Source: an uncultured Prevotellaceae bacterium
GTDB taxonomy: Bacteria; Bacteroidota; Bacteroidia; Bacteroidales; Muribaculaceae
NCBI GenBank assembly: GCA_900318345.1
Contig: ONKD01000005.1
Location: 22,827-86,826 of the forward strand
Length of the DNA: 64,000 bases
Direction: 5' to 3'
Position numbers and translations under genes: made by a program. This document shows, piece by piece, positions 1-8,794 of this stretch. A model generated the notes under the pieces. The model ran no database searches. It saw nothing but the letters and a program-made list of their open reading frames with translations, and was not told the DNA's origin. Every line of letters starts with the position of its first letter. The stretch's first letter is position 1.

Positions 1-1
1 C

Positions 2-1678
2 CACAGTATGATATATTTCCAAAATCGTACTGGAGATAAGGACAAAAATCAGATTCAGACTCTAAGCTGCCTTATCGACGGGACATATAAAGATATGCCT
101 TCAACATTGGATGATGAGTTGCCGACAGATTGGGAGAACTGTCACATTCGCATATCAAAAGACTGGGAAGATGTTGAATCCAACATCTTAACTGAACTCA
201 GCGAGGATAGAGATGCTAAGCTAATTCTGGTTTCTGCCTTTGGAAGTTTTAAAGCTGGAGCCAATTTGCAGTATGAGATTCCTGATGGTCTCGACTATGT
301 AAGTGGAGATAATTGGAGCAACGAAGGGGAAAAGCTAAAGAAAGACTGGGATGCCATTTATGTTCAATCGCCCACAGCTTATCTCATGATGAATGAAGAT
401 GGCACTGAGAGCACTTATGAGAAAAGCCTCTACAATGCCATGTTGACTTTAATGATGCTGTATGAACGTGGCTGTCTTTCGAAAACGGATGTCGCTCAAT
501 GGCTTTGTTACGCTCTTTCAAATAGCTTTATGTTTGGGGAGAAACAGAATCCTGGTATTGTTAAGGACAAGTCAGCATGGGCCCAAACCACGGTCGAGCA
601 AGCTATAGGACGATTATGTCGAACAAGAAACAAACCTCATACCACATATATTCTGTTCGATGAATCGATGAGGTCCTTCTTTGATGCTTCAAATATGGAG
701 AAATCACTCACTAAGGAGTTCAGAGCTCTAGCTGAATACATCATGAATCATCAAAATGTCGAAGTTCCAGAAAGTGACCCTGATGAAGTGATAAGGTGTA
801 ATGATGCAAATTACGCTCAAAGACAACTGGATCGACTTCGCAGTTTAGCTCTTCGATTTACACCTCACCAAAATGATGAAGAAGATATTGATGATGACTA
901 TGATGGTGATGATGACTTGCCTTACATTGTGAGGAGCAGTCAAATAATGAACCAAAGCTATAAACAGACTATCATTAAAAAGCCTGTAATTGCAAGCATT
1001 GAAGAGCTAGACGACCTAGATAAGCGTCTGACATTCATTACCAAGTGCTATGGGTCATGGGATAGAGACGATAACGGATGCTATTCTTTCTCTTGTGAAA
1101 CAAAGTACAATAATCGAATTTGCGTTTCTGGTAAGGGGAAGGCATATTCTATCTCGCCGTCATCTGTGAGACTTGATGTTCTCATGAAGAACTCCGTGAT
1201 TAAAGACCATTTCGAGAAAAACGGCTTTGCTACTACATGGGGAAAAGAAGGACTGATTCTTCATCCACAGATTCTAGCAACTGATTATGCCGGAGAAATT
1301 GGTGAAGAAGCATTTAAGGCGATTTTACTGTATTATACCGATTGTACGGAAGATAGCATCAAACATTTGGAAGGTAAAGATTACGAGTTGGCTGATTATG
1401 TCATACTTAATCCTGATGGAAGTTACAAAATCGCGTTTGATGTAAAGAACATGAATCCCAATGTTGACCATAACGACAAACGGGGGGATATGCCAACATC
1501 TATGAAACGCGACATAAAGCGAAAGCGTTTGGGATGTGAGTTGATTACAGTTAATATGCTCCAACTGGGTAACAGTAGTATGGATGAACTTCGAGAGATA
1601 AGCGGTATGATTGATAAGAATGGCAATATCATCCATAGCGCAATCGATCATCTCAAAAAACTTATTAATTCCAAGTGA
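2..1678 (+). CDS. DdmD-like superfamily 2 helicase-nuclease, C-terminal part (cut by window edge)
   Basis: The reading frame is open to the left edge, so the gene starts upstream and the RecA1 half (Walker A, DEAD/DEAH box) is not visible. Counting from the first Met at base 8, residues 73-90 (SAFGSFKAGANLQY) look like helicase motif V and residues 193-209 (EQAIGRLCRTRNK) like motif VI with its arginine fingers. An acidic stretch (EEDIDDDYDGDDD) follows. The last ~140 residues resemble a PD-(D/E)XK nuclease: Glu near 432 (GEEAFKAIL), Asp 463 (ELADYVI) and the DVK of IAFDVKN at 478-480. A helicase with a C-terminal nuclease, directly upstream of a ~660-residue PIWI-like protein, matches the DdmD/DdmE plasmid-defence pair in layout; that assignment is inference. 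The helicase call is firm, the nuclease call good. Composition is AT-rich compared with the housekeeping genes to the right. Confidence 0.6.
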   Translation, partial: HSMIYFQNRTGDKDKNQIQTLSCLIDGTYKDMPSTLDDELPTDWENCHIRISKDWEDVESNILTELSEDRDAKLILVSAFGSFKAGANLQYEIPDGLDYVSGDNWSNEGEKLKKDWDAIYVQSPTAYLMMNEDGTESTYEKSLYNAMLTLMMLYERGCLSKTDVAQWLCYALSNSFMFGEKQNPGIVKDKSAWAQTTVEQAIGRLCRTRNKPHTTYILFDESMRSFFDASNMEKSLTKEFRALAEYIMNHQNVEVPESDPDEVIRCNDANYAQRQLDRLRSLALRFTPHQNDEEDIDDDYDGDDDLPYIVRSSQIMNQSYKQTIIKKPVIASIEELDDLDKRLTFITKCYGSWDRDDNGCYSFSCETKYNNRICVSGKGKAYSISPSSVRLDVLMKNSVIKDHFEKNGFATTWGKEGLILHPQILATDYAGEIGEEAFKAILLYYTDCTEDSIKHLEGKDYELADYVILNPDGSYKIAFDVKNMNPNVDHNDKRGDMPTSMKRDIKRKRLGCELITVNMLQLGNSSMDELREISGMIDKNGNIIHSAIDHLKKLINSK

Positions 1679-3666
1679 ACATGAAAATTGATGAACAATA
1701 CATAAAGAGCTTGCCTCTTACCACTAACAAGATAAATGTCACCTTTGATAAGGACGCTTTCTTTTCAAAGTACTCTATTGTGTCATACTATGGTACAGAT
1801 AAAGAGTCGAGAAACCTAGCCTATGAGCAACTTGCTGATGTTCCTTGCGTTTCTGTTACTGGAGTTAGAGCACGGTGGAGAGGATTGCGCTTCCCTTCCA
1901 CCCATTTCTTCATTCTTGCAGTTAAAGGCGAGGAGACGAACATTCTTAACAGCTTAAGAGATTATGATTACATCCGCTCACAAATTGATACGCTGGAAGA
2001 ATATGACGAAGTGCTCCAGAAAAGGATTATTGCATCACTAGCCATCAACTCACTTGGGAAAAAGAAAAACAACAAGATGATGTACAATGATGGCTCGCTA
2101 CTAATATGTGATGATAAGAACTTCAATATACCGAAATCAAGACAGGAACTTGTATGCTTGAAAATCGAGGTAAACGAGTATATGAATCTTATCGCAAGAA
2201 CCACCTCATTCTCAAATCCCTCATCTTTTAAGGAGCTTGCAAGACATAAGAATTGTGTCTTTAGAGTCAGCAATGACATTGGTGGGTATCTATGGGAAGG
2301 GCGTTCTGTTAAGCCGATTGTTGTAAAGGACTTCAAAGATGGCGATTACAACCTAAAAGAGCTATACATTCTGAAGAAAAGATTTAGTGACAATAAAAAC
2401 AACGTTCCATATTGGCCCTATAATAAAGAGAACTATACTCACGGAAAGCTTTTTGTTCTTTGGCAGGTAGTCAATTCGGTTAATAAAGACTTCAAAGGTT
2501 TAGTAGAAATAGGTTTTTGCGATTTTCAGGTTTTACACTATGATGAATGCAAGACCGGAGATGACATGCTTTCACTTTTGCGACAATACTTTTCTGGAAA
2601 GACCATTTATATAGACGATCCTTTTGGTACAGTAGCATCGAAGGAATTGATACTAAAGTTCAAGTCCGAGGTTAAATATCTCATGGGGGATTGCCTTATC
2701 TTCTCAAAAAAACATTCCAGTAATGACATGGTAATAAAGCTTTGTGAACCCAAAGAGCTGGCAGCTGACTGGACCCATTACACACAATCGCTTTATAGAT
2801 TAGCGCATAGCTGTAATGCACTTCAGCACATTACAGTTCAAGAGAACAAGAAAAATGAGATCACTAAAGCGAGTGCAAGACGCATCCTCATTGAGTTGCT
2901 TGTTAAGGATTCGCTTATCAACAGAATAATGCCTAAACAGTTGACAGAGTTAATGTCAGGTTGGACATTTTATCGGTATAAAATCAATAAAGACTTCGTT
3001 CATGGTGCATCTTTAGCTGTTGACCCAGATGGTTCCATGAACATTGAAGAGTATGGTTTGTCCCAGAATAGTCTTGGAGAAAATTTTGAGCAATTTGTTC
3101 AGGAACACTTAAAATTCAATGACTACGATAAGATTCGTGGAGGCCGGGATTACATGGCATTAGAAAAAAACGGCAATGTGTATCTGATCATTGATACTGA
3201 CGAAATACCAATCCTCGATGTTGTTCTCATTGACGAAGGATATGACCAAGTGATTAATAAGGGGGAGACCGTTGCGATGTTCAAGCGTAAGAAGAATGTA
3301 CATGAATATCTTCGTGGTTATATTGGATTCCATCTTTGGAAATCGGATGGCCTTGATGGAGAGAAAGACGCTGCGTATTCATATATCGCTGGCACCAATA
3401 GCGAGAACATGCAGATTATGCAGAACACAAAGATGGATAAAATGCCTAGAGCAAGGCGTATCTTTGTATTGAATGAAGATAACCCCGAAGCAGTTAGCTC
3501 AGATATCAATGAAATCACGACGATGCTAAAGTTTGGATTTGGCCGTTGGAATGAGCTAATGACCTATCCGTTCCCATTCAAATTCCTGCAAGAGTATCTG
3601 GATGATGCATGTGAAACGGTCTTCTCTAAACACTGGAAAGACATAACCTACAGAGGAGATCTATGA
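1675..3666 (+). CDS. DdmE-like (prokaryotic Argonaute-related) protein, probably without slicing activity
   Basis: The start is the GTG at 1675, which overlaps the stop of the helicase-nuclease gene, or the ATG at 1681; either way the two genes are translationally linked. The protein has ~660 residues, no signal peptide and no membrane segment. Its last ~130 residues read like the end of a PIWI domain: a strand pair (DVVLIDEGYDQVI), then a GTN segment, PRARRIFVL, a helix ending in MLKFGFGRWNEL, and YPFPFKFLQEYLDDACE, in the place where Argonautes have the Pro-x-Pro...Tyr-Ala-(Asp) end helix. I cannot find the four acidic catalytic positions of active Argonautes. In DdmDE, DdmE is an inactive guide-loaded Argonaute that recruits DdmD to plasmids; that role here is inferred from neighbourhood and size. 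Alternative: the partner of an unrelated two-gene defence system. Confidence 0.5.
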   Translation: MNMKIDEQYIKSLPLTTNKINVTFDKDAFFSKYSIVSYYGTDKESRNLAYEQLADVPCVSVTGVRARWRGLRFPSTHFFILAVKGEETNILNSLRDYDYIRSQIDTLEEYDEVLQKRIIASLAINSLGKKKNNKMMYNDGSLLICDDKNFNIPKSRQELVCLKIEVNEYMNLIARTTSFSNPSSFKELARHKNCVFRVSNDIGGYLWEGRSVKPIVVKDFKDGDYNLKELYILKKRFSDNKNNVPYWPYNKENYTHGKLFVLWQVVNSVNKDFKGLVEIGFCDFQVLHYDECKTGDDMLSLLRQYFSGKTIYIDDPFGTVASKELILKFKSEVKYLMGDCLIFSKKHSSNDMVIKLCEPKELAADWTHYTQSLYRLAHSCNALQHITVQENKKNEITKASARRILIELLVKDSLINRIMPKQLTELMSGWTFYRYKINKDFVHGASLAVDPDGSMNIEEYGLSQNSLGENFEQFVQEHLKFNDYDKIRGGRDYMALEKNGNVYLIIDTDEIPILDVVLIDEGYDQVINKGETVAMFKRKKNVHEYLRGYIGFHLWKSDGLDGEKDAAYSYIAGTNSENMQIMQNTKMDKMPRARRIFVLNEDNPEAVSSDINEITTMLKFGFGRWNELMTYPFPFKFLQEYLDDACETVFSKHWKDITYRGDL

Positions 3667-3726: not shown

Positions 3727-4159
3727 ATGACCGACCCTCCCACCAAAGAACAGCTCATTTCCTTGGTCGAATCTATGTGTGAGGTCCAGGATAGAATGCT
3801 CGGCGCAAGAGGAATGCCTGAACATATCCAAAGACCTCACGTGGATAATATGGAGGCATTAAAAGCGCCGGTGTTTTTTCTGTGGGAGCTGCTTGGATAT
3901 GGAACCGCGAGAGAATTGTCTGAAAAAGGCATTAAGAGGGTCTGGATGGCGAGTTTTATATCTTCACCGGGGGAACTTGGGAGGGTGTCTATCGTTGCTT
4001 AGAGAGCACAAAATACCGATAACCGAGTATGATGGAGGGACCAGGCTGAGACAAACCCTAATCGATTTTTACTCGGATATGGTTGAACTGTATGTGTGTA
4101 ACGCTATATTTTGCAAGCAAAGTATATATCAGCGATTGTATTGTATTGTTCAAGATTGA
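3727..4159 (+). pseudogene. Decayed small gene spread over three frames
   Basis: Three protein-like stretches follow each other in different frames. Frame 1 from the ATG at 3727 reads naturally to about 3940 (ELLGYGTARELSEKGIK). A second frame gives LDGEFYIFTGGTWEGVYRCL from 3942 and stops at 4022. A third frame gives ITEYDGGTRLRQTLIDFYSD and ends at 4159. Joined, they would make one ~140-residue protein, so a gene with two frameshifts is more likely than two overlapping genes. I do not recognise the family. The 3' end runs 56 bases into the end of the convergent recombinase gene. Sequencing error could also produce this pattern. Confidence 0.4.
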
Positions 4160-6941
4160 TTCTCCTTGCCCTCGAACCATCATCGCCGAGACCAACAGAC
4201 ATCATATAACCAGGGCTGCCACCAAAGACATTACAAACAGGTGTCCATAGTTCTCTTGATCCAGTCCATTGTGAAACGAACTCAGGAGAGATGCCTTCAC
4301 GATTTGATTCATCTATAACATTTAATCTTGAGGCTTTTTCATTTGTATTCGTCAATAGTCGTATCAGGAACTTCAAGCTCGCCATGGTATGACCATTCCA
4401 TTTTAAAATGAATGACAAAGGTGTGGTTGAAGTTATGCCTAGAAAATGCTTCAAGCATGTAGCCACATTAACATTATCTGTTGACTCTAGTACCGTTATG
4501 AACTGTTGATTCTTGTTTATTTCATGTTTCTCTGTAAGTAATATAATAAGTTTATCGATATCAAGATTATCACTATTAAATAATATATAGTTTGTTCCTA
4601 CTTTCTGTTTCTTAATTATTTTGTCTTCAATTCTCACATTCTCTCTAGAGGGCAAATCCAATGATTGCTCAGCAGGGTCAGATACTGCTTTTTGCTTGGC
4701 AAGGTAATCATCGTAAGCATCTTTTAGTTCTGGATACTTATTGAAATCAACCAGACTTCGTACCTTATTGAATATTTTCTTCTCTGAAGGATAAGCATAC
4801 TTGCAGCAATCATCGAACATTTTTAACACAGTATCCAATATCCACAATTGTTGTTTTCTTATATCGGCTTCTTGAACATTCGTTAACATGAAGTCGGGAA
4901 TGGATTCATCTTTACCGCTATCAACATATGGGTTTAGAAGGTACATTCTTTCAATTGCCTGATTTCTCAGTTCGAAATAATTATCTGGCTCAGATTTAGC
5001 TATCTTGTATAAGTCGTCATTCAGTTTTAATTTCATTCTCTCAAAATGATTATCATAAGCATTTATAAGTAATATGCGAACATCATTTTCATGTGTTTTG
5101 ATGGTTGTAAAAAAAGTATTGAAATCTCCTTTTGTAATAGAATTATATAGCACAGTCTTAACATCATGGCTGCAATTTGTGTTCTGAATTAACGCATCCA
5201 GCTTCATTGCTGGTGTCTTCTGCAATTCTTTAAAAACCAAGTCCCAGTCAATCCTTGATTTGAATTTTGAATTGTCGTCTTCTAACATTGTATCATCAGC
5301 AATGGGGCGGTTCTCTTGGATGAACTGCATCATTTTTAAAAAAACCACACGAAACTTCTCAATAGGCCACAAAACTTTTAAATGATACATTATTTGACTT
5401 AAATATATCGCATCTGGATTCTCTGCACAAATTGTGTGTAATATATTCTCAAGACTTTCTATTGCGTCTTCAGGGACATGATTAGATTTTAAATAATCTA
5501 TCAGTATTCTTATATTATTTAACCTTTCAGTATCTAAAATGATTTTCGGAATATCTGGTTTTGCATTCTCTTTGATCTTTGCTTCAAAATTCTGCCAAAA
5601 TAAAATAACATCTTCCTTAGATTTGAACCGTTGTTTATTCTCATCTACACTATCAATGATTGACTTTAGTTTGTCTTCAAAATAAGAATCTATTTCATCC
5701 ACGTCATGCCCCTGAAAAACTTCGTTCATTTCATTAATAGCTTCATTAACTCTATTATTTAAGTTACGTATATAGTTTTCATAAACAATAACTTCATCTG
5801 ATTCAAAGATGGAAGATGACCCTGAATCTGTAGAGATAGGCTGGATAGCCGTTGCTTCTTTATGTACAGAAGTTTCTGGCTCGTTTGGAATCTTCAATGA
5901 TGAATCACAGGAAGAACCTGCATTGTCATCATCCATGTCACTGAACAAATCTGATTCGATTAGGTTGATTTCGTCTTCATCTGTGAGCTGAGCATAGATT
6001 CTTTTAATCATTTCATCACTGGCATGGCCTGTCATCCTTCTTAACCGTTCGGTACTCACGCCCTTTTTGAGCATGTTTGTTATGAACGTACAACGAGCTG
6101 CATGGTTAGTTATTTCTTCATACAATGGGCCTTTCACTTCTGTTAGTACGGAATCAATTCTAACAATCTCCCTATTTAGTCCCGCCTTTTTCGCTATCCT
6201 TCTAATCGCTTCATTGTATGTGCCATTGCCTTTACTGTTAACCCTGTCTTCAAAAACACTGGGCTTTATAAGCTTATGAGAATTAACCCTTTCCATCCAC
6301 ATTCTCATTTTAGGTCTCAAAGGAATATGAGCTTTAATATTCTCTTTAATGGTTGAAATGATAATGTACTCAAATTTCTTTCCTTGCTTAACCTTGTATT
6401 TGCCCGTAAGTATTTTTGCCAAGTCCGATACCCTTTGCCCACACTCGATTTGAAGTAAGAATATGTCGCGATACTCTTCATCAACAGGTTTAAGCCCCGA
6501 ACAATTCTCTATTGCAATCACTTCATTGTCGAGCAGAGGGAAATGCCCCTTTTGGTCCTCTCTACGAGTATCCTCAACTTTAACCCAAACCACACGATTG
6601 GGTACAACTTCTTCGGGGCATAGTACATTATTTATCAGACGGGCAATCATGGAGCCGCAACGGTTCAACTGACCAACACCAAAATTCTTCTTTTTGCCAT
6701 CCGCTTTAGTGAAGTTCATCTTATCAATCAGATACTCCTTGTACCGATTCAGTCCTTTCTGGCTAAGGATTTTCATCGTCTTATCTCTTGCAGGTAAAGT
6801 ATCAACAAAACGATAAAACTCACTCAAGAGAGATTCATTCTGCCGTTTGGTACTATCTTTTATTGAGGGCTTCATCTTATGATAATGCTCCAATGCGTCA
6901 GCAATAACCTGCTTGATGTCTATTTTCTTTTTCTTGGCCAT
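4104..6941 (-). CDS. Tyrosine recombinase fused to a ~610-residue C-terminal region of unknown function
   Basis: The protein has 945 residues. Residues 1-330 are a phage-integrase core: a SAM-like core-binding part (DSTKRQNESLLSEFYRF) and a catalytic part with Arg170 (ECGQRVSDL), Lys199, His280-x-x-Arg283 (NHAARCTF), His306 (MTGHASD) and nucleophile Tyr316 (RIYAQL). All catalytic residues are present. It is strongly similar to the recombinase next door at 7088-8467 but lacks that protein's N-terminal arm-binding region; a frame-shifted remnant of it lies upstream (6920-7087). After a Ser/Asp-rich linker, residues ~335-945 form a mostly helical, charged region I do not recognise. Near the end, LKWNGHTMASLKFLIRLL is a W-x-G...L-x-x-L-I pattern of a kind I associate, weakly, with Bacteroidota mobile-element proteins such as RteC. 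It probably moves the island, or acts as an accessory recombinase. Confidence 0.75.
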   Translation of the reverse strand: MAKKKKIDIKQVIADALEHYHKMKPSIKDSTKRQNESLLSEFYRFVDTLPARDKTMKILSQKGLNRYKEYLIDKMNFTKADGKKKNFGVGQLNRCGSMIARLINNVLCPEEVVPNRVVWVKVEDTRREDQKGHFPLLDNEVIAIENCSGLKPVDEEYRDIFLLQIECGQRVSDLAKILTGKYKVKQGKKFEYIIISTIKENIKAHIPLRPKMRMWMERVNSHKLIKPSVFEDRVNSKGNGTYNEAIRRIAKKAGLNREIVRIDSVLTEVKGPLYEEITNHAARCTFITNMLKKGVSTERLRRMTGHASDEMIKRIYAQLTDEDEINLIESDLFSDMDDDNAGSSCDSSLKIPNEPETSVHKEATAIQPISTDSGSSSIFESDEVIVYENYIRNLNNRVNEAINEMNEVFQGHDVDEIDSYFEDKLKSIIDSVDENKQRFKSKEDVILFWQNFEAKIKENAKPDIPKIILDTERLNNIRILIDYLKSNHVPEDAIESLENILHTICAENPDAIYLSQIMYHLKVLWPIEKFRVVFLKMMQFIQENRPIADDTMLEDDNSKFKSRIDWDLVFKELQKTPAMKLDALIQNTNCSHDVKTVLYNSITKGDFNTFFTTIKTHENDVRILLINAYDNHFERMKLKLNDDLYKIAKSEPDNYFELRNQAIERMYLLNPYVDSGKDESIPDFMLTNVQEADIRKQQLWILDTVLKMFDDCCKYAYPSEKKIFNKVRSLVDFNKYPELKDAYDDYLAKQKAVSDPAEQSLDLPSRENVRIEDKIIKKQKVGTNYILFNSDNLDIDKLIILLTEKHEINKNQQFITVLESTDNVNVATCLKHFLGITSTTPLSFILKWNGHTMASLKFLIRLLTNTNEKASRLNVIDESNREGISPEFVSQWTGSRELWTPVCNVFGGSPGYMMSVGLGDDGSRARRINLEQYNTIADIYFACKI

Positions 6942-7087: not shown

Positions 7088-8467
7088 TTATACTTCATCG
7101 TCTTCTACATCACTATACAAGTCGGATTCGATTCGGTTGATTTCATCATCGACTGTGAGTTGAGCATAGACCCGTTTAATCATTTCATCATTGGCGTGCC
7201 CTGTCATCCGGCACAATCCTTCAGGACTAACGCCCTTCCTGATCATATTAGTAATGAACGTGCATCTAGCATCGTGGCTAGACACCGTCTTATATAACGG
7301 TTTTCTTACTTCTTTTTGAGTCGAATCAATCTTGACTATCTCCCTGTCTAATCCTGCTTTCCTGGCAATTCTACGTATCGCTTCATTATATGTATTGTTG
7401 CCTTTACCTCTTGTCTTTTCTTCAAACTCTACTGGGTCAACAAGCTTTTGACTCTTGATTCTTTCCATCAACATTGTCATCCTGGGCGTTAAGGGAATAA
7501 TCGCTTTGATATTCTCCTTCATTGTCGAAACGACGATATACTTGTATTTTTTACCTTGCTTGACCTTGTAGTTTCCGGTGAGCAGTTTGGCCAAGTCGGA
7601 TACACGCTGACCACACTCAAGATGGAGCAAAAACACATCGCGGTATTCTTCTTCAACAGGGGTTAGGCCAGGGCAATTCTCAATCGCAGTGACTTCATCG
7701 TCCAAAAGAGGAATATGTCCCATCTGGTCTTCTCTGCGGGGATCCTCCACTTTGATCCAAACAACGGGGCTTGAGACCTCTTCTTTAGGGACAAGCACTT
7801 TGTTAATTAGTAATGCGATGATGGCTCCACAACGGTTCAACTGACCGACACCAAAGTTTCTCTTAGTGTCACCAGCTTTGCTTTTGTTCATTTTATTAAT
7901 CAGGTGTTCCTTGTACATGTTCAAGCCGCTCTGACTGAAGATCTGCATTGTCTTGTCTTTTTCAGGTAGGGTGTCAACAAAGCGAGCAAATTCACTAAGG
8001 AGTGATTCACTCTGCCGTTTTGTGCTGTCCTTAATTGATGGCTTGACGTAATTATGGTAATGATACAGTGCGTCCATAATAGTCGCGTACGGATCGAAGT
8101 TCGTTTTAGCCACATCCTGATAAATGAATTGTTTGAGAGTTGCCACAATATCCGTGACATCATTTTCACATAGATACTCAATAAATTCAGCAAAATAGCG
8201 CCTGAACCGGGCTAATCTTTCATTGGCAATCATGTTATTCTGATTGTCCTGCTTGCTCAAGGTGTTTGAAACAACGGCAAGTTCCTTCTTGGAATTCCAC
8301 TGTTTTGGATACACTCTCACCCCGGTTGAGTACCGATACTGCTTGCCTTCAATAAAAGCAACGAAGTAGATTTTTCGTGGTCCAGAGGCTGTAGATCTAC
8401 GCAGGTAAAATCTTGACTTGATTTCACCATAGTACTTCTGACGCTTGTCATTGATAATCATGCTCAT
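7088..8467 (-). CDS. Tyrosine recombinase (integrase) with arm-binding domain
   Basis: I chose the ATG at 8467 (MSMIINDKRQKYYG), which gives 460 residues; a further in-frame Met at 8533 would add an unlikely hydrophobic 22-residue extension. The N-terminal ~90 residues resemble the arm-binding region of Bacteroidota integrases (FYLRRS...VYPKQWNSKKE). A SAM-like core-binding part follows, then the catalytic domain with Arg288, Lys317, His398-x-x-Arg401, His424 and Tyr434, a complete R-K-H-R-H-Y set. This is the gene closest to the host-like DNA, the usual place for the integrase of an integrative element. Its target is not visible: no tRNA lies nearby. The next gene downstream is a truncated paralogue, so the region looks like a tandem duplication. 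Confidence 0.9.
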   Translation of the reverse strand: MSMIINDKRQKYYGEIKSRFYLRRSTASGPRKIYFVAFIEGKQYRYSTGVRVYPKQWNSKKELAVVSNTLSKQDNQNNMIANERLARFRRYFAEFIEYLCENDVTDIVATLKQFIYQDVAKTNFDPYATIMDALYHYHNYVKPSIKDSTKRQSESLLSEFARFVDTLPEKDKTMQIFSQSGLNMYKEHLINKMNKSKAGDTKRNFGVGQLNRCGAIIALLINKVLVPKEEVSSPVVWIKVEDPRREDQMGHIPLLDDEVTAIENCPGLTPVEEEYRDVFLLHLECGQRVSDLAKLLTGNYKVKQGKKYKYIVVSTMKENIKAIIPLTPRMTMLMERIKSQKLVDPVEFEEKTRGKGNNTYNEAIRRIARKAGLDREIVKIDSTQKEVRKPLYKTVSSHDARCTFITNMIRKGVSPEGLCRMTGHANDEMIKRVYAQLTVDDEINRIESDLYSDVEDDEV

Positions 8468-8480
8468 AATTCTCAAAAGT

Positions 8481-8504
8481 GTGTTAGTAAACTGTGTTAG
8501 TAAA
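8481..8504. repeat. Two 11-bp direct repeats upstream of the integrase
   Basis: GTGTTAGTAAA occurs at 8481-8491 and again at 8494-8504, a 13-bp period, just before the integrase start. An inverted repeat GCCCA/TGGGC follows at 8517-8531. Spaced direct repeats here could be recombinase arm-type or regulator sites; this is inferred from position only. Confidence 0.45.
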
Positions 8505-8651
8505 GTGTACAAAAACGCCCAAAAAATGGGCAAAAATTGACTGTTTTCGGTAGTATTTGAACACTTCTTATCACGTCACTCTTGAGCCGATTTGGTTTAA
8601 AACTTCATCGCAACCGCTTGTGATATAGATAATTAGATCAACCAAAAAGTT

Positions 8652-8667
8652 TGGCACGGTAATTGCT
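8652..8667 (+). promoter_or_regulatory. Sigma-54 (RpoN) type -24/-12 promoter
   Basis: TGGCACGGTAATTGCT matches the -24/-12 consensus TGGCAC-N5-TTGCW at every defined base, with the GG and GC dinucleotides 10 bases apart. Start of transcription is expected near 8679. There is no clear gene behind it: a 17-codon frame at 8727-8780, then the acetyltransferase gene at 9001. It may be a host promoter separated from its gene by the island, or drive a short RNA. Confidence 0.5.
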
Positions 8668-8794
8668 GATATAGGTTCGAACTCATAATTTTTGGAGGTT
8701 TTTTAGGGTTAAACAAGATTGTCAGCATGGCTCGGGAGGGTAGTGCTGATTTATTTTTATGTCCTATAGGGCTATCATAAATCGATCCTATCTG

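Follow-up and report, generated by a model that had tools for sequence, protein, structure and literature searches.

A window of 64,000 nt from an uncultured Prevotellaceae bacterium (the whole stretch of DNA analysed here, G000:C44:22827-86826) begins with two overlapping genes that likely form a two-gene DdmDE defence system, composed of a DdmD-like helicase-nuclease and a DdmE-like Argonaute. Judged by sequence and predicted fold, the pair is a divergent Bacteroidales branch of DdmDE. This reading is based on sequence and fold evidence for DdmD, fold evidence for DdmE, the conservation of the pair, the co-divergence of its two genes and the defence genes found in its neighbourhood. The two open reading frames (ORFs), at 2-1678 (with its 5′ end beyond the window) and 1675-3666, are as the original prediction had described them and overlap by 4 bases. 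The missing 5′ part of the helicase gene was retrieved from the parent contig, where the complete gene (L002:12734-16504) starts 2.1 kb ahead of the window and encodes 1256 amino acids (aa). As the same two genes recur in the same order in 18 further loci, the arrangement is not a chance one. The features of the pair within the window are as follows.

1..1678, + strand: 3′ part of the DdmD-like gene, residues 699-1256 (ORF, PADLOC, PDB and fold matches)
599..622, + strand: superfamily 2 (SF2) helicase motif VI, QAIGRLCR, residues 898-905 (Q898, G901, R902 and R905 invariant in a 6-row alignment)
1304..1447, + strand: predicted PD-(D/E)XK nuclease active site, E1133, D1163 and D1178-V-K1180 (invariant in family alignment A3 and in the 6-row alignment)
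1675..3666, + strand: DdmE-like Argonaute gene, 663 aa, GTG start (ORF, AlphaFold2 model, Foldseek)
2824..2910, + strand: QH...ARRILIELLVKD stretch, residues 384-412, putatively in the MID region by its position (family alignment)
2962..2985, + strand: predicted first PIWI strand, W..fRYKI, residues 430-437, so named from the order of elements (model and 20-row alignment)
3565..3588, + strand: C-terminal YPFPFKFL motif, residues 631-638 (20 of 20 family rows)

The first gene encodes a DdmD homologue

Pfam recovered from the first protein only ResIII, at 4e-5 (just above the cut-off), together with a sub-threshold Helicase_C_2 match. The PADLOC DdmD model, in turn, matches the full protein with an E-value (E) of 1.8e-25 and the in-window fragment alone at 2.1e-16. 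When the single protein was searched against PDB sequences, it matched the DdmD of Vibrio cholerae (VcDdmD) at E 2.8e-23 over two stretches (residues 466-941 and 1083-1147) and that of Lactobacillus casei (LcDdmD) at E 1.6e-8; with the family profile A3, built from the window's gene and 18 of the 19 related loci that have a DdmD match (L029 being left out), the values were 1.1e-28 and 3.6e-18, respectively. An AlphaFold2 model was made for the in-window residues 699-1256, with a predicted local distance difference test score (pLDDT) of 69.7 and a predicted template modelling score (pTM) of 0.56; its truncated helicase half is poor and its nuclease region good. In a fold search with this model all 20 PDB chains at E<=0.001 were DdmD or DdmDE entries, with template modelling (TM) scores of about 0.4, and the match at rank 21 stood at E 0.17.

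The motif residues expected of both activities are conserved, namely GGGKS, DESD, SAT and QxxGRxxR for the helicase and E1133, D1163, D1178 and K1180 for the nuclease. In the 6-row distant alignment, which takes in plasmid relatives from Nostoc, Persicobacter and Cetobacterium that are 17-22% identical, G33, G35, K36, D259, E260, S566-A567-T568, Q898, G901, R902 and R905 are invariant in the helicase, as are G1132, E1133, D1163, D1178 and K1180 in the nuclease region. E1133, D1163 and D1178-V-K1180 are also invariant among the 19 rows of A3, and the nuclease site aligns at the same place as YELFDF...IDFKNW of LcDdmD. Taken by sequence and model, the first protein is a DdmD homologue, that is, an SF2 helicase with a C-terminal PD-(D/E)XK nuclease and with its predicted catalytic residues intact. 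Sequence and fold thus agree with the original prediction on this point.

The second gene product has a DdmE-like predicted fold

By sequence, the second protein went unmatched in Pfam and PADLOC (both searched to E 1) and in NCBIfam (to E 0.01), and its matches among PDB sequences, obtained with the protein alone or as a profile, were all at E 0.46 or worse and were rejected as chance. A different picture was obtained from its AlphaFold2 model (pLDDT 74.3, pTM 0.77), which was built from 20 family sequences (alignment A2, comprising the window and 19 of the 23 loci described below; L026, L028, L029 and L030 were left out as fragments). Foldseek returned 22 PDB matches at E<=0.001, and ranks 1-6 were all DdmE: those of L. 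casei gave the best values, 4.2e-26 and 8.2e-26, and those of V. cholerae ranged from 2.2e-20 to 2.1e-13, at identities of 13-15% and TM scores of 0.45-0.62. Ranks 7-22 were other Argonaute or PIWI structures, the best at 8.8e-8; we take the entry at rank 7, 4kpy, to be an Argonaute. DdmE structures therefore stand ahead of every other Argonaute, and the PIWI-like end that had been proposed for the second gene is invisible to sequence search but borne out by the predicted fold.

Several conserved elements resemble those of DdmE. Q384, H385, R402, R403, K411 and D412 are invariant in the family alignment, on which this statement of conservation rests, a strict QH...VKD pattern being too strict (2 of 20 rows). 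Here, QHITV resembles the QHLTV(E) common to L. casei DdmE (LcDdmE) and Nostoc DdmE, and the C-terminal YPFPFKFL is similar to a stretch in LcDdmE (VPYPVKYLRE) and to one in the Nostoc partner protein (IPFPFKYLRE). Other invariant blocks, e.g. ELVCLK.EvNEY and YWPY, are specific to the family. In the predicted first PIWI strand (residues 430-437) W, R, Y, K and I are invariant and none of the 20 rows reveals a conserved acidic residue, which fits a nuclease-dead Argonaute; we infer such a state from the predicted strand order rather than from a superposition on DdmE. A sequence bridge to DdmE was also tried, through profiles of the Nostoc and Persicobacter partner proteins, and failed at probabilities of 8.7% and 2.7%. 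As this comparison with single partner proteins was weak, it is mainly fold and gene order that point to the second protein being a DdmE-like long Argonaute.

Distribution and joint inheritance of the pair

Matches were found in 2 of 149 genomes of the same family, own genome included, and in 5 of 393 genomes of the same order, one of which was then rejected as chance (G309/L008, E 9.2e-4), its ORF looking like an unrelated 440-aa protein that we read as an ABC1-type kinase. In a 395-genome sample of the phylum, searched with the A3 profile and the PADLOC DdmD model (0 matches in 14 control genomes), only the own genome was recovered. A pattern search across 84,980 species genomes, which reaches close relatives only and says nothing on absence elsewhere, yielded 23 loci; the titles of their records all name Bacteroidia or Bacteroidales taxa and mostly point to herbivore gut samples. 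Three relatives, L005-L007, were used in A1 alone and could represent the same species as some of L009-L031. Scanning of viral contigs with both family alignments gave 19 and 112 pattern matches and no confirmed relative; a phage search found no relative of the first protein, and a plasmid search found one relative of the first protein and none of the second.

A full-length second gene is present in 18 of the 23 loci, and in all 18 it is directly preceded by a DdmD-like gene, with a gap of -4 to +15 between the two (-4 in the window). In L029 the first gene is full and the second is cut by the contig end, and in L022 and L026 it is the upstream side that is cut at a contig end. L028:8037-8687 and L030:7869-8411 are fragments of the second gene (ORFs of 216 and 180 aa), for which no first gene was found in the upstream 8 kb; these are perhaps decayed copies. 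L026 and L029 belong to the same metagenome-assembled genome, as do L030 and the intact L011. Among the 19 pairs, pairwise identity is 54-93% for the first gene and 50-91% for the second, and the identity matrices of the two proteins correlate (Mantel r 0.85, a value reached in 0 of 5000 permutations), some correlation being what shared host ancestry alone would give. The flanks vary, and no other cluster of flanking genes exceeds 4 members. The pair is thus inherited jointly, its two genes diverging together while the flanks vary.

Proposed mechanism and comparison with known systems

To the gene pair, homology, fold, kept motif residues and joint inheritance observed here, a mechanism can be added by analogy, in which guide loading, plasmid targets, recruitment, translocation and cutting are all taken from studied systems. 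In the studied systems, as reviewed in PMC12409362, DdmE binds guides, locates plasmid DNA and calls in DdmD. The DdmD dimer is autoinhibited until it opens; it then loads onto the non-target strand, translocates along it in the 5′ to 3′ direction and makes the cut. By extension, the present DdmE-like protein would act as a nuclease-dead long Argonaute carrying a short nucleic-acid guide; it would find guide-matching DNA on small multicopy replicons and recruit the DdmD-like protein, which would load on the displaced strand, move with ATP, and cut or degrade the plasmid. The predicted parts for such a mechanism are present in the Bacteroidales pair, and guide-directed plasmid elimination would be its function.

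With the V. cholerae system (VC1770-71; PDB 9ezy, 8u3k, 9bgk, 8u0j) the pair shares gene order and helicase-nuclease architecture, as originally proposed, the likeness being supported by sequence and fold for the first protein and by fold for the second; the DdmE proteins differ, however, being about 13-15% identical over the structural alignment. LcDdmE, from the L. casei DdmDE (PDB 9iw3, 9ixm, 9ix4), is the closest in fold and has a similar C-terminal motif and QH stretch, but it is 14% identical over the structural alignment and gave no sequence-level DdmE match. In Vibrio, according to the same review, a WYL regulator adjoins ddmDE. The WYL gene of the present contig is 2.9 kb upstream of the pair and separated from it by other genes; in L014 such a gene lies directly upstream.

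DdmD-like pairs were also seen at L033-L035, which are plasmid loci from Nostoc sp. UHCC 0926, Persicobacter psychrovividus and Cetobacterium somerae. In these a DdmD-like gene is directly followed by a second gene of 606-761 aa, as here, but their DdmD proteins are 17-22% identical to the present one and the partner 19%. The Nostoc partner matches LcDdmE at 7.6e-13, and the Persicobacter partner had no PDB match. In L034:4326-10330 (Persicobacter, Bacteroidota) and L035:3912-9832 (Cetobacterium) the adjoining partner is unannotated; the two are DdmE candidates only, and the loci plasmid-borne DdmDE-like candidate pairs.

The kind of system is already known, and the pair extends DdmDE-type plasmid defence to Bacteroidales. 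In the open-access literature searched we found no report of DdmDE or DdmD in these bacteria, although an earlier notice in Bacteroidota is possible. PMC11096173, on ApsAB, shows a tree of DdmD-like proteins; PMC11411939 mentions Bacteroides in connection with TgvAB. The Argonaute of the pair was missed by the curated libraries tried (Pfam, PADLOC, NCBIfam), and model-based surveys would therefore undercount the system. A pair this divergent offers a way to find out which portions of DdmE guide and partner binding depend on, and it may help explain plasmid carriage in Bacteroidales hosts.

Alternative explanations

Several observations weigh against a DdmDE assignment. At the sequence level the second protein matched no DdmE in PADLOC, Pfam, NCBIfam or PDB, and comparing profiles with the partner proteins from Nostoc and Persicobacter gave a weak result. 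Its model is poor in parts (105 of 663 residues below pLDDT 50) and agrees moderately with DdmE (root mean square deviation about 8-9, with the TM scores given above), and the DdmD-half model is poorer than the DdmE one. Several loci have non-defence upstream neighbours (epimerase, HIT, Porph_ging); in addition, the left end of the island discussed below was not found. Were the pair an unrelated helicase-plus-nuclease defence operon, the failure of every sequence library tried to match the second protein would be accounted for, but this reading is already contradicted by the sequence and fold evidence for DdmD, the fold evidence for DdmE and the DdmDE gene order, and is extremely improbable. 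A further alternative is a system of the type of ApsAB of Escherichia coli ST38, which acts against plasmids and works alike with a different Argonaute partner (the ApsA helicase-nuclease and the Argonaute-like ApsB). According to PMC11096173, ApsA and DdmD belong to one broad family with intermediate members, and the published ApsA motifs (GFGKS, DELH, SAT, QAVGRVER, D...DVK) are of the same helicase and D...DVK types and correspond to the invariant motif set of the present first protein. The published MID pattern of ApsB (Y-x3-K...QG...K), however, is not conserved in the second protein, occurring in loose form in 7 of 20 rows, scattered and not aligning. Among the structures compared, which included no ApsB, the best matches are DdmE, and an ApsAB-type system appears very unlikely.

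Within the DdmDE reading, the natural targets might be mainly conjugative or phage DNA rather than small plasmids. The pair has restriction genes around it, on what is putatively an integrative element, and Bacteroidales carry many integrative and conjugative elements. Against this, the characterised DdmDE and ApsAB systems act on plasmids, and ApsAB was without effect on eight phages (PMC11096173, PMC12409362); we consider such targets unlikely. It is also conceivable, if rather doubtful, that the Bacteroidales branch is a functional DdmDE subtype with its own recognition mode, using a different guide or favouring integrative and conjugative elements over small plasmids, since its Argonaute is no longer recognisable by sequence and possesses invariant blocks of its own.

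Genomic neighbourhood and putative mobile island

Two tyrosine recombinase genes adjoin the pair downstream, as had been noted before:

4104..6941, - strand: tyrosine recombinase, 945 aa (Phage_integrase, E 2.1e-15)
7088..8533, - strand: second tyrosine recombinase, 481 aa, with an N-terminal Arm-DNA-bind domain (Phage_integrase, E 6.8e-16)

The two are 70% identical over their shared catalytic part. The 945-aa protein is without the N-terminal arm domain and carries a C-terminal extension of ~600 aa with no above-threshold family match. Upstream on the same contig are a PrimPol/BT4734-type gene, two cytosine methylases, a GmrSD_N gene, an HEPN gene, an McrB-like ATPase whose 750-aa partner matches no family, an HD gene and the WYL regulator. 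The cytosine methylases, GmrSD_N gene, McrB-like ATPase and 750-aa protein without family match (L002:1655-8197 and L003:6581-8744) possibly form a restriction system, either McrBC-related and modification-dependent or LlaJI-like.

The proposal of a mobile island is supported in part. The two recombinases, the PrimPol/BT4734-type gene, the restriction genes and synteny on the right flank speak for it; no attachment (att) repeat was found at the island, no transfer RNA (tRNA) target in the parts scanned, and no left junction, because the own genome offers no more than a partial match, of 30%, to the gene on the left side of the matching site in G939. The right flank is syntenic with same-genus genomes, in several of which an acetyltransferase-like gene accompanies a conserved block of intergenic sequence, and this co-occurrence places the putative right edge of the insertion near 8530-8650.

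When 10 neighbours were chosen by size from 7 loci, 7 of them matched PADLOC models at 1e-5. Pfam, run on 10 upstream neighbours, suggested defence or regulation for some (GmrSD_N, WYL, KilA-N, helix-turn-helix with IrrE-like peptidase) but not for the epimerase, HIT and Porph_ging ones, and gave no match for two. A PDC-S41 candidate defence protein (PADLOC, E 1.8e-245 or better) adjoins the pair in three loci (L012:8896-11025, L015:656-2773 and L025:2181-4232), downstream in one and upstream in two.

The intergenic block itself (8645-8760) is 84-97% identical in same-genus genomes. At 8652-8666 it contains a sigma-54-like promoter, TGGCACGGTAATTGC, recognised by the sigma-54 promoter consensus (the pattern occurs once in the window, where 0.09 occurrences would be expected, and in 9 of 100 shuffled sequences), which is followed by a conserved stretch and then by a terminator-like hairpin (minimum free energy -18.9 kcal/mol, z -2.3). 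The block has no Rfam match and is possibly a small RNA or leader.

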